Assembly (NCBI GenBank): GCA_944322175.1
Contig: CALUOB010000006.1
Location: forward strand, 1-41,985
DNA length: 41,985 bases
Source of the DNA: an uncultured Coriobacteriaceae bacterium
Lineage (GTDB): Bacteria; Actinomycetota; Coriobacteriia; Coriobacteriales; Coriobacteriaceae
Direction of reading: 5' to 3'
Below are positions 18,410-29,217 of the stretch, piece by piece. Made by a program: the position numbers and the translations under genes. The notes beneath the pieces were generated by a model, which saw only the letters and a program-made list of their open reading frames with translations, made no database searches and was not told the origin of the DNA. Positions within the stretch are counted from its first letter, which is position 1. Each line of letters begins with the position of its first letter.

Positions 18410-19102
18410 TCAAAGCCCTAACGCTACCCTGACGAGCAGCTCGTAGAGCGGGTACACCGTCACGTCAAAGTAAAGACCGATAAGATCGATCCCCGTAATA
18501 TACGGAAGCAGGTACAGCACGACAATGAGGATAGGCATCGCGTAGCGCTGGATCTCGTAGTACGTGCTGAGCGCCCGTCCTTTGAGAAACGGCACGAGAA
18601 TGGAGGACCCGTCGAGCGGCGGCAGCGGGATGAGGTTGAAAAACGCCAGCGAAAGATTGACCGATATAAGCGTCAGGCAGAAGTCGAAGATCTCCGATGC
18701 GGGAAACGTCGCACCTACAACGGGAACCGGGCTGTTGAACAGGACGGCGAGAAGCGCCGCACCGAGGCAAGCGAGAACGATGTTGGAGGCAGGTCCCGCC
18801 AGCGCCACAAGGAGCTCGTCGCGCTTGGGATGCTTGAGATTGCGCAGGTTCACGGGCACCGGCTTGGCAAAGGCAAAAACCGGGCCGCCGGCGGCAAGCA
18901 TCAAGAGCGGAAGCAGTACGGTACCGAACGGGTCGATATGATGCAGCGGGTTGAAAGAAACACGCCCGCGCGAACGCGCCGTGCGGTCACCGAGAAGGTA
19001 CGCCACAAGCGCATGCGCCGACTCATGCACGACGATGCCTGCGATAACCGCAAGCGCCTGCATGACGAGGCTCATGATGTAATAGGAGGGATTTACGCTC
19101 AC
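18410..19102 (-). CDS. M50 site-2 protease family protein (YwhC/Rip3-like)
   Basis: A 230-residue integral membrane zinc metalloprotease of the short S2P group without a PDZ domain. The zinc motif is H-E-S-A-H in GIVVHESAHALVAYLLGD, and the third ligand lies in NLIPLPPLDGS. About five to six membrane helices are seen. Substrates of this short group are largely unknown. A GTG start at 19102 is chosen because GAAAGG precedes it; a longer reading back to 19255 would run through the small membrane protein gene. It often stands near scpA in actinobacteria and Firmicutes, as here (90 bases away). Confidence 0.85.
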   Translation of the reverse strand: MSVNPSYYIMSLVMQALAVIAGIVVHESAHALVAYLLGDRTARSRGRVSFNPLHHIDPFGTVLLPLLMLAAGGPVFAFAKPVPVNLRNLKHPKRDELLVALAGPASNIVLACLGAALLAVLFNSPVPVVGATFPASEIFDFCLTLISVNLSLAFFNLIPLPPLDGSSILVPFLKGRALSTYYEIQRYAMPILIVVLYLLPYITGIDLIGLYFDVTVYPLYELLVRVALGL

Positions 19103-19121
19103 GATACGCCTTTCGATCGCG

Positions 19122-19433
19122 TTAGCGACGCAAGCGCGCCGCAATCCGGCAGCAGAGATAATCCAAAACGAACAAAGCCACGGCGCACAGCGCAAAATCG
19201 AGGCGGAACACCCCACCGAAAGGCGTTGCCACAACTCCGTAGCCCGATATGACATCGGGCAGCGCGCGCGTCAGATCCACCACGAAGCTCACGAGATTGA
19301 GCTTTGCCGATATGCCGCTGAAGCACAAAAGCACGGTGAGGGCGCACATGAGAACGGCGAGTATGCGCAGCGCATAGGCAAGCAACTTCAAGGCAACTGC
19401 CGCAGGCTGCGCGGCACGGTTAGGACTGGGCAT
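19122..19433 (-). CDS. small two-helix membrane protein, function unknown
   Basis: A 103-residue protein that I do not recognise. It has two hydrophobic segments (about 14-39 and 78-97), joined by a mildly polar loop of about 38 residues, and a basic C-terminus (RIAARLRR) that predicts a cytoplasmic tail. A good ribosome site (GGAGGT, six bases before ATG) lies in the end of the ABC-F gene, which it overlaps by 14 bases, and the M50 protease gene starts 19 bases later. The overlap and ribosome site support a real gene; its job is unknown. Confidence 0.65.
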
Positions 19434-25574: not shown

Positions 25575-26642
25575 CTACAGTGCGTCGATCTCCTTGAACA
25601 ATTCGTCGATTATAGCGTCTTCCGGTACCTTGCGCAGTACCTCGCCCTTGCGGAAGAGGAGCGCGCACCCCTTGCCGCAGGCAACGCCCACGTCGGCGCC
25701 CTTGGCCTCGCCCGGGCCGTTGACAACGCAGCCCATCACGGCAACAGAGATGGGCTTATCTAGCATGCGGAGACGGCGCTCCACCTCTTGCGCAACGGGA
25801 ATGAGGTTCACCTGCGTGCGACCACACGTAGGGCATGAGACGAGCTCGGGACCGCGGCGCCTGAGCCCGAGGCTTTGCAGGATGCCCCAGGCCACCGGCA
25901 CCTCTTCGACCGGATCGGCGGTCAATGACACCCGAAGCGTATCACCGATGCCGTCGCTCAACAGAACGCCGAGGGCTACGGCGTTTTTGATCGTGCCCTG
26001 CTGAGGGGTGCCCGCCTCGGTGACCCCCAGATGCAAGGGGACCTGCGGCAGCTCTCGCGAAAGCGCGCGGTAGGTTTCGATAGTCGTCGGCACGTCGTGC
26101 GCCTTGGCAGAAAGAACAATGTTGCCAAAGCCGCGGGCCTCGAAGTGGCGAACGAACTCAACGGAGGAGGCTACGAGCTTCTCGGGCAAGGTCAGGTCTT
26201 CTCGCGCGTCGACCGCTTTGTCGAGCGAGCCGGCGTTCACGCCGATGCGGATCGCGCAGCCGTTCTCCCCTGCGGCTTCGATAACCGCGTCGACCTTGTC
26301 CCATGAACCGATGTTGCCCGGGTTGATGCGCAGCTTCGCCGCACCCGAACGCGCCGCCGCTATAGCGAGCTCGTAGTCGAAGTGAATGTCGGCGACAATG
26401 GGAACAGGGCTCTGCGCGCATATCGCGGCAAAGGAATCCACCGCGCCCTTATGCGGCAGCGTAACCCTCACGAGGTCGCAGCCTGCTTCTGCGAGCGAGC
26501 GGACTTGTGCCGCCGTCGCTTCGGTGTCCTCGGTTTTTGTGCAGGTCATCGACTGCACAACGATAGGAGCGCCTCCTCCGATCACAACGGAGCCAACATG
26601 AGCGGGACGCGTGAGAGAACGAGGCGTTTCTGTATTGGCCAT
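25575..26642 (-). CDS. ispG: 4-hydroxy-3-methylbut-2-en-1-yl diphosphate synthase
   Basis: A 355-residue iron-sulfur enzyme of the MEP pathway that opens the cyclic diphosphate MEcPP to HMBPP, the substrate of IspH. The N-terminal TIM barrel (to about 260) and the C-terminal cluster domain are both present. Cluster ligands are C270, C273 and C305, with E312 as the fourth. It is the two-domain bacterial form. It lies 12 bases after the rseP-type gene and 94 before proS. Confidence 0.96.
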   Translation of the reverse strand: MANTETPRSLTRPAHVGSVVIGGGAPIVVQSMTCTKTEDTEATAAQVRSLAEAGCDLVRVTLPHKGAVDSFAAICAQSPVPIVADIHFDYELAIAAARSGAAKLRINPGNIGSWDKVDAVIEAAGENGCAIRIGVNAGSLDKAVDAREDLTLPEKLVASSVEFVRHFEARGFGNIVLSAKAHDVPTTIETYRALSRELPQVPLHLGVTEAGTPQQGTIKNAVALGVLLSDGIGDTLRVSLTADPVEEVPVAWGILQSLGLRRRGPELVSCPTCGRTQVNLIPVAQEVERRLRMLDKPISVAVMGCVVNGPGEAKGADVGVACGKGCALLFRKGEVLRKVPEDAIIDELFKEIDAL

Positions 26643-26654
26643 AAGGCGGCTCCC

Positions 26655-28019
26655 TTAGAAGAATCTCATGAAGTCGATGCGCAGCATATAGACGAAGAGA
26701 ACGCCGATGAGCGCGAGACCGACAACCGAGAGGCCGTTTTGAACCTTGAGAGGGACGGGTCTGCGAATGACCGCCTGCACGATCTCGATGAGAAGCTTTC
26801 CGCCGTCGAGCGGGGGGATGGGCAACAGGTTCATGAAGCCCAGCGAGAACGAAATGGCAGCAGCAAAGTTGAGCAGCGTCGCCGCGCCTGCCGAGGCAGC
26901 CTCCGCAGACATTACGGCGATGCCCACCACCGAGGTCGACTGATCGAGAACGGTGAGCGTCTGAGAGGGGTTGAGCAGGCTCGCAACGGACTGGGCAGTC
27001 AAGACGATCGACGACCACGAAACCTGCGCCGCTTCGATGGGATTGAGCCGCACGAGCTCGGTCGACACGCCGATACCGAGCATCTCGCCCTCGTCGAGGT
27101 TCACAACCGCGGTCTCGGTTGCCCCATCATGGTCGAACACCAGCTCAAACTCCCCAGAACCGGCGGCCTCCTGCAACGCCGTATAGACATCGGTCCAGGT
27201 ATCAGTCTCAGAACCGTCGATCGATACGATGGCGTCACCGGGGGCAAGTCCGATCTCTTCTGCAAGGGAGCCCTGCTCAACCGAGCCGACGGTGTTGACG
27301 TCCTGGGCAACCGAGAAGCCGATGATGGAGTACACGCTCATCATGAGCATGAAGCCGACGACGATGTTGACAACGATGCCGGCAATGAGCATGAAGGCGC
27401 GCTTCCAGAAGCCCACGCCAACATAGGTGCGCGAGCGCTCGCGCGCAAAGAACTCGTCGTCCGAAAAAGGCGGCTCCCATGCGTCGCCCTCGATCGTTGC
27501 CTCGGCGCGAGCGAACGACTTGCCATCGTAGATAGTGCGACCCTTGCTGTCGCGCGGCATGGCGGCATAGGTCGTTGCGAGATACGCGCCGCCCGCACGC
27601 TCACCTTTTGCCTCGTCGTATCTCGGGGCGAGGGACCCCCATCCCTGAAGGGCCGCGCAGATGTTAAGCGCGCGGTCGGTATCGCAGCCGAGTTCCCTCG
27701 CGAGATCTTCGACACTCATAACGCCGCGGCGATGGACAAGGGCGAGCGCGCGGGGAGCCAGGTCGTCGTCAAAGGGCTCCATGCCGCAAATCATGGCGTA
27801 ACCGCCAAGCAAAAGCGGGGTCACGCCGAACTTCGTGCCGATCCGCTTTGAGACATGGCTCAGATTGAAACGGCACGGCATGCCGAGAAAGAACTCGGTA
27901 ACGCGGACGCCGCAGGCGCGTGCGGCCAAGAAGTGCCCGCCCTCGTGCACGAACACGAGAAACGAGACAACGACGACGAACCAGAATATAGGGGCGATGA
28001 TTCCGATGAGAGCGCTCAT
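26655..28019 (-). CDS. rseP: RseP-type site-2 protease with an unusual insertion
   Basis: A 454-residue membrane zinc protease that cuts substrates within the membrane, such as anti-sigma factors or leftover signal peptides. Helix 1 carries H25-E-G-G-H29; the third ligand is in NLLPIPPLDGG (397-407); a single PDZ domain lies at about 240-300. Between GGY (72-74) and the second core helix (FWKRAFMLIAG, 204-214) there is a stretch of about 120 residues, far longer than usual, and residues 88-131 look like a winged helix. The ribosome site runs into the dxr TAG stop, two bases before the ATG. The position between dxr and ispG matches RasP of Firmicutes. Confidence 0.92.
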   Translation of the reverse strand: MSALIGIIAPIFWFVVVVSFLVFVHEGGHFLAARACGVRVTEFFLGMPCRFNLSHVSKRIGTKFGVTPLLLGGYAMICGMEPFDDDLAPRALALVHRRGVMSVEDLARELGCDTDRALNICAALQGWGSLAPRYDEAKGERAGGAYLATTYAAMPRDSKGRTIYDGKSFARAEATIEGDAWEPPFSDDEFFARERSRTYVGVGFWKRAFMLIAGIVVNIVVGFMLMMSVYSIIGFSVAQDVNTVGSVEQGSLAEEIGLAPGDAIVSIDGSETDTWTDVYTALQEAAGSGEFELVFDHDGATETAVVNLDEGEMLGIGVSTELVRLNPIEAAQVSWSSIVLTAQSVASLLNPSQTLTVLDQSTSVVGIAVMSAEAASAGAATLLNFAAAISFSLGFMNLLPIPPLDGGKLLIEIVQAVIRRPVPLKVQNGLSVVGLALIGVLFVYMLRIDFMRFF

Positions 28020-28020
28020 G

Positions 28021-29217
28021 CTACCTCCTCGAGGCCACGAACGCCCGCGCCTCTTCTCGCGCCCAGCGATCGATGAGCCATAGCTGATCCAAGCTCTCTA
28101 CCCGTTCGGGCTCATGTCGCTCCATGACATGAGCGACCGTGCGATCGATATCGGTAAATCCACAGCAACCTGCGAGGAAGCTCGAGACCGCTACCTCGTT
28201 GGCCGCATTCATCGCGCACGGCATCGTGCGGCCCACTTTGCCCGCCTCTAAGGCAAGCGCCAAACACGGAAACGCCTCGGTATCCGGAGCGCCGAAGTCA
28301 AGTGAACCGAGCTGCCTGAAATCAAGGCGAGGACAGGGAGTGCCCCAGCGCTGGGGGTACGAGAGCGCGTACTGAATGGGAATGCGCATGTCGGATGCAC
28401 CTAGATGCGCCATCACCGAACCGTCGCAGTATTCCACCATCGAGTGAATCTTGGACTGACGCTGCACGACGACGTTGATGAAGTCCATATCGACGTTAAA
28501 CAAATGGTGCGCCTCGAGGCACTCGAGGCCTTTGTTCATGAGCGTGGCAGAGTCCACGGTAATCTTGGCACCCATGTTCCAGGTGGGGTGCGCGAGCGCA
28601 TCGGCAGGCGTGACCTTCTCGAGCTCGGCGCGAGAGCGCCCGTAAAAGGGACCGCCTGAGCACGTAAGCCATATGGCATGGGCCTCGGCAGGATCCTCGC
28701 CGCGATAGCACTGGAAGATAGCCGAGTGCTCGGAATCAATAGGTATAAGCTCTCCCGATCGACGGGAGAGCGGCATAATGAGATCGCCCGCGATAACGAG
28801 CGACTCCTTGTTTGCGAGGCCGACGCGCTTTCCAGCCTCCAGGGCGCGGACACACGACCATACGCCGACGGCGCCTACGAGCGCCACGACGACAACATCG
28901 ACGTCGTCCTCTACGCCGATCTCGCTCACAGCGCGCTCACCAAAGCGCACCGAGCAGTCGCCGGGAAGATCCGCGATGCGTGCGTCGCCTTTGAGGCGCT
29001 CGTCAGCAACGGCAACGCGCTTAGGCCTAAAGTCCGCGGCAGCTTTGACGAGGAAGTCGAGAGAGGTGTTGACCGAGAGCGCAACGACCTCGAGCTTATC
29101 GGCATGCTTGCGGCAGACGTCGAGCGTCTGCGCGCCGATGGAACCCGAGCAACCGAGAATAGCGACGCGGATGCGGCGGACGGCGCCGTCCACTGCATGA
29201 GTGCGAGGGGTCTCCAT
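28021..29217 (-). CDS. dxr: 1-deoxy-D-xylulose 5-phosphate reductoisomerase
   Basis: A 398-residue cytoplasmic enzyme that commits carbon to the MEP pathway, making 2-C-methyl-D-erythritol 4-phosphate with NADPH and a divalent metal. The cofactor motif is GCSGSIGAQTLDV (19-31); LANKESLV and the metal-binding IDSEHSAIFQC stretch are intact. The C-terminal helical domain is complete. The first 16 residues extend beyond the usual start and are polar. The ATG overlaps the cdsA TAA stop by one base (TAATG). Confidence 0.96.
   Translation of the reverse strand: METPRTHAVDGAVRRIRVAILGCSGSIGAQTLDVCRKHADKLEVVALSVNTSLDFLVKAAADFRPKRVAVADERLKGDARIADLPGDCSVRFGERAVSEIGVEDDVDVVVVALVGAVGVWSCVRALEAGKRVGLANKESLVIAGDLIMPLSRRSGELIPIDSEHSAIFQCYRGEDPAEAHAIWLTCSGGPFYGRSRAELEKVTPADALAHPTWNMGAKITVDSATLMNKGLECLEAHHLFNVDMDFINVVVQRQSKIHSMVEYCDGSVMAHLGASDMRIPIQYALSYPQRWGTPCPRLDFRQLGSLDFGAPDTEAFPCLALALEAGKVGRTMPCAMNAANEVAVSSFLAGCCGFTDIDRTVAHVMERHEPERVESLDQLWLIDRWAREEARAFVASRR

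Follow-up and report, generated by a model that had tools for sequence, protein, structure and literature searches.

A winged-helix domain inserted beside the active-site hairpin of RseP throughout the Coriobacteriia, with a putative role in cytoplasmic docking or gating

Regulation of the site-2 protease RseP is understood mainly from the outside, through site-1 cleavage and the size filter provided by PDZ domains. The locus studied here raises the question of what a long, folded insertion might be doing on the other side of the membrane. The window, that is, the whole 41,985-nucleotide stretch of DNA analyzed, derives from an uncultured Coriobacteriaceae bacterium (contig CALUOB010000006.1), and the RseP that it encodes had been read in an initial annotation, made from the sequence alone, as carrying a winged-helix-like insertion that could gate substrate access or bind a cytoplasmic partner or nucleic acid, thereby linking membrane proteolysis to a signal. 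Searches of the open-access literature turned up nothing relevant on site-2 proteases with a winged helix or on the RseP of Collinsella; subscription journals may contain an earlier description.

Beyond its Pfam assignment (Table 1), the gene product scored 181 bits against TIGR00054 (cut-off, 147.55), and the Foldseek matches of its model included the RseP structures 7w6x, 7w6y, and 9j82/9j83. Across 31 class sequences, the zinc-site residues H25, E26, and H29 were invariant, as were N397, P400, P403, D405, and G406 of the segment NLLPIPPLDGG (residues 397-407). The AlphaFold2 model further showed the membrane-reentrant hairpin, with strands between residues 40 and 77 and the GGY at residues 72-74; the PxGG/MRE loop is described in PMC4597795. 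The gene thus encodes a true and canonical RseP/site-2 protease, which is predicted to cleave membrane substrates within the bilayer. In common with group I site-2 proteases such as E. coli RseP (7w6x, 7w6y, 9j82), it has the HExxH and NxxPxxxLDGG motifs, the reentrant hairpin, the second core helix, a PDZ domain, and the gene order on the dxr side, but its PDZ domain is single where E. coli RseP has two. A second M50 family protease, also matching PF02163 over the cut-off but PDZ-less and of only 281 aa, is encoded elsewhere in the window (18410-19255, minus strand).

The gene order is dxr-rseP-ispG-proS, with dxr (28021-29217) and ispG (25575-26642) flanking rseP, and cdsA and proS further out. 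This gene order was common to the named relatives sampled (Collinsella, Olsenella, Tractidigestivibacter, Olegusella, and Adlercreutzia), including Eggerthellaceae genome L148. In two Adlercreutzia loci, L154 and L168, a dxr match was absent from the 4 kb upstream of rseP, while ispG and proS were present downstream; dxr may have been relocated there or may have diverged.

Table 1. Features of the rseP gene and its product, by position in the window
Feature	Position	Strand	Evidence
rseP, encoding a group I site-2 protease of 454 aa	26655..28019	-	PF02163 (E = 2e-41, Pfam); TIGR00054; Foldseek
HEGGH motif of the zinc site in the first core helix (residues 25-29)	27933..27947	-	Sequence
GGY (residues 72-74) in the membrane-reentrant beta hairpin, or MRE beta-loop	27798..27806	-	Sequence; strand E73-77 in model
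Acidic linker GMEPFDDDL (residues 79-87; GMEPGPEDPLL in the class consensus)	27759..27785	-	Alignment
Predicted winged-helix core, residues 88-133 (H1 88-98, S1 100-102, H2 103-110, H3 114-126, S2 130-133)	27621..27758	-	AlphaFold2, Foldseek, Pfam
W127 codon, near-invariant Trp ending the recognition helix	27639..27641	-	Class alignment
Second wing strand, residues 150-153	27561..27572	-	DSSP on both models
Variable polar segment, residues 137-186	27462..27611	-	Alignment
Short helix (residues 187-195) ahead of TYxGxxFWKR, through which the second core helix is entered	27435..27461	-	AlphaFold2 model
Second core helix, residues 204-233	27321..27410	-	AlphaFold2 model
One PDZ domain, extracytoplasmic (about residues 241-318)	27066..27299	-	PF17820 (3.4e-9)
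LDG catalytic motif, residues 404-406, third core helix	26802..26810	-	Sequence

The stretch between the GGY and the WKR of the second core helix spans 132 residues in the window's RseP and 96-145 residues across Coriobacteriia (n = 20), compared with medians of 28 residues in other Actinomycetota (n = 57 sequences) and 27 in other phyla (n = 32 sequences; maximum, 58). The initial annotation had thus been right in describing a long stretch where ordinary RseP has a short loop, and its boundaries were correct to the nucleotide (residue 82 at 27774-27776, residue 203 at 27411-27413, GGY at 72-74, and helix from 204). The loop of B. subtilis RasP is longer at this site than that of E. coli RseP. 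In the acidic linker, G79 was conserved in all 83 non-redundant class sequences and M80 in 82 of them. The polar stretch that had been placed after the helices is present as well, and it is variable: alignment occupancy was 0.64 over residues 133-186, compared with 1.00 for the winged helix. The window's family and a number of related ones have a long form bearing an RDxxGxTxYD motif, and the rest of the class has a short one.

The fold was approached through two AlphaFold2 runs, one of the window protein with 22 homologues and one of an 80-residue piece alone. The full-protein model had a mean pLDDT of 90.1 and a pTM of 0.83, with pLDDT of about 96 over residues 88-133 and blocks of 94-97 over residues 91-130. 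The domain modeled alone reached a mean pLDDT of 87 with its secondary-structure elements unchanged, and both models displayed the H1-S1-H2-H3-S2-S3 order of a winged helix. When the domain was compared with the PDB by Foldseek, winged-helix regulators, FtsK gamma, Z-alpha, TFE, and other proteins containing winged helices or wHTH domains came out on top, with a probability of about 1.00, TM scores of up to 0.69 (query length), and E-values no better than 4e-3, in line with the small size and commonness of the fold. The window's own insertion segment matched no Pfam or NCBIfam domain above the cut-off, and support came from its homologues: among 46 class members, 22 matched MarR_2 (best, 1.8e-6), 19 HTH_PafC, and 14 FtsK_gamma (best E, 1.2e-4). 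With AlphaFold2, Pfam, and Foldseek in agreement, residues 88-133 together with strand 150-153 are predicted to form a winged helix. The earlier reading of residues 88-131 as such, drawn from sequence, is accordingly borne out by the Pfam HTH families, both models, and Foldseek, and residues 82-203 do contain a compact domain in the predicted structure.

This domain proved to be a property of the class. Its columns were filled in 127/127 aligned Coriobacteriia loci (some genomes enter twice, and 83 sequences are left below 70% identity), while it was absent from 50 of the 57 other actinomycete sequences and from all 32 sequences of other phyla. Most RseP proteins outside Coriobacteriia therefore lack the insertion, contrary to the outcome that the initial annotation had named as fatal to its proposal, and an insertion specific to one genome or genus is rejected by its class-wide presence. 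Six of the seven long-loop actinomycete exceptions belong to a single family (L134 and L200-L204), and the seventh, L209, has a loop of 94 residues. The family's insertion measures about 100 residues, shows a conserved R/E/D-rich pattern of its own, occupies the same site in RseP, and represents an independent domain insertion; a common origin with the Coriobacteriia domain was rejected, as the sequences are unrelated (hhalign probability, 1.5%).

Within Coriobacteriia, the insertion became fixed at an early stage, and no lineage sampled has lost it. Mean pairwise identity was 0.32 for the winged helix, equal to that of the PDZ domain, versus 0.40-0.60 for the neighboring core. In nine close pairs, domain dN/dS mostly fell between 0.04 and 0.27, usually below the PDZ value, with the very close pair L020/L025 giving 0.36 from very few changes. 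The domain is thus under purifying selection, and W127 was Trp in 74/83 non-redundant class sequences. Further, all 15 Eggerthellaceae-type loci (12 distinct genomes: L050, L051, L073-L077, L112, L116, L148, L154, and L168) lack the PDZ domain and keep the winged helix, in RseP proteins of 353-376 aa. A Pfam scan of seven Eggerthellaceae-type RseP proteins found no PDZ match, and wherever neighbors could be checked, the PDZ-less gene was the syntenic orthologue of rseP.

As for where the domain came from, the only non-RseP match of the class profile in the window's genome was FtsK gamma (E = 4.7e-5), and that genome contained no other free-standing copy. The hhalign probability was 94.1% over 58 columns against FtsK gamma, whose domain is also preceded by a DDPLL lead-in, and 91.7% against a MarR set. 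The domain probably derives from a captured winged helix of the FtsK-gamma or MarR type that later lost its DNA-contact residues; the two profile matches being nearly equal, a MarR-like source is almost as well supported as FtsK gamma. The RseP domain differs from FtsK gamma in its acidic recognition helix, in a KOPS-contact position that is not basic, and in its location inside a protease. Likewise, it resembles the MarR/TrmB/PafC winged-helix regulators in fold and Pfam similarity, but is strongly acidic, forms part of a membrane protease, and, in the full proteins tested, stays below the Pfam gathering cut-offs.

Unlike the short loop of E. coli RseP, then, the loop that follows the GGY in the window's RseP spans 132 residues and contains a predicted, folded winged helix. 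This domain belongs to the first cytoplasmic loop and lies before the second core helix; it immediately follows the membrane-reentrant hairpin, by which substrate is presented to the zinc site. According to work on E. coli RseP (PMC4597795, PMC7728848), the first cytoplasmic loop and this hairpin lie along the edge of the active site where substrate binds, which suggests that the domain is tethered to a substrate-presenting element on the cytoplasmic side. Topology and sequence would place it over the active-site opening, with W127 exposed. We propose that the domain, which is acidic and specific to the class, serves in the cytoplasm as a docking site for proteins or as a gate next to the active-site hairpin, a reading that we consider probable, if by no means secure. 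Such a domain would interact with proteins and would not read DNA; it would sit where the active site opens to the cytoplasm, with the acidic face of the recognition helix and the near-invariant W127 forming its contact surface. It might dock either the cytoplasmic portion of substrates or some general partner from the cytosol; alternatively, it might act as a lid that covers the active-site opening. It may also serve as the cytoplasmic counterpart of the PDZ function outside, which could explain why the Eggerthellaceae have lost the PDZ domain and never the winged helix.

A precedent is offered by B. subtilis SpoIVFB, whose cytoplasmic CBS domain contacts the substrate pro-sigmaK, as established by crosslinking (PMC9042235). 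Both proteins place a soluble cytoplasmic domain on a site-2 protease core, but SpoIVFB belongs to group III and has a C-terminal CBS fold, whereas Coriobacteriia hold a winged helix within the first cytoplasmic loop; the window's RseP had no CBS match in Pfam and does possess a PDZ domain. By this analogy, gating and the binding of a cytoplasmic partner, two of the activities put forward in the initial annotation, appear plausible, while this analysis found no specific signal linked to membrane proteolysis. Should docking or gating be correct, a whole bacterial class, including such common gut commensals as Collinsella and Eggerthellaceae, would also control or direct RseP from the cytosol. 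The idea is directly testable, given that the domain is soluble and small with an obvious deletion boundary, and a natural experiment is provided by sister families that share the winged helix but differ in whether they have a PDZ domain. A fuller scenario can be put forward tentatively, as one that may well be wrong: an FtsK-gamma-type, DNA-reading winged helix would have been captured at the base of Coriobacteriia, acquired its acidity, and become a cytoplasmic docking or gating module that governs intramembrane proteolysis from inside, complementing the outside PDZ filter and outlasting it in the Eggerthellaceae.

These proposals have to be weighed against other uses of the same fold. Winged helices are typical of DNA-binding proteins, and the nearest relatives, FtsK gamma and MarR, bind DNA; the domain might therefore bind DNA or RNA, tethering nucleic acid to the membrane protease or sensing it, as the third of the originally suggested activities would have it. 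The charge of the domain argues against this. Its net charge had a median of -7 per 52 residues and a maximum of -2 over the 127 loci, compared with a median of 0 and values of up to +5.5 for whole MarR-type domains in the same genome (eleven hits). The recognition helix H3 averaged -3.3 and was positive in 2% of members, rather than the recognition helix and wing being basic or neutral as expected of a DNA-binding winged helix. Further, mutation of R1300 in E. coli FtsK renders KOPS recognition defective (PMC2680272), and the equivalent position 119 was basic in 4/46 RseP domains. The strong acidity and the lost contact arginine together disfavor nucleic-acid binding, which we deem improbable. 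An intramolecular lid or structural brace, which would need no external partner, would pack on the cytoplasmic face and gate access to the zinc site, either laterally or from the cytoplasm. It is in keeping with the location of the domain, which separates the substrate-presenting hairpin from the second core helix and is flanked on either side by conserved linkers, and with the pTM of the whole model. Yet the RseP of other bacteria works with a loop of 27-28 residues, and the identity of the domain, set against that of the core, is lower than expected for a tightly packed core element. We hold such a lid or brace to be unlikely on balance, and a purely structural role to be compatible with the data.

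That the insertion is a near-neutral relic without function could be argued from the unrelated insertion in the other actinomycete family, which indicates that this loop tolerates insertions; the complete lack of losses in 127 loci, the purifying selection, and its retention in Eggerthellaceae despite loss of the PDZ domain make this very improbable. For the docking reading, known RseP systems suggest candidate partners. The top Foldseek match was the integrative model of B. subtilis RasP-EcsA (9a6w), in which a site-2 protease is modeled with a cytosolic protein, but EcsB was found in 0/59 Coriobacteriia genomes searched, so that this partner system is not shared and EcsAB was rejected. A dedicated receptor for RsgI-type anti-sigma factors would accord with the cleavage of RsgI by RseP in Clostridium thermocellum (PMC12203970) and with three RsgI_M proteins in the window's genome, two of them directly beside sigma factors. 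However, RsgI_M occurred in 33/149 Coriobacteriia genomes and almost never outside Coriobacteriales, while the winged helix is universal. This distribution rejects RsgI as the sole or dedicated partner and renders such a receptor highly unlikely; with RsgI patchy and EcsB absent, neither is the general partner. RsgI_M membrane proteins are nonetheless likely RseP substrates in Coriobacteriia to which the winged helix is not tied. In the window's genome, a Sigma-70-type gene is followed by a single-pass RsgI_M membrane protein (VNPS/INPE motifs) at L195 1468-3095 and L196 1363-3011 (contigs C15 and C4), and the third RsgI_M match lies at C4:15529-15879.
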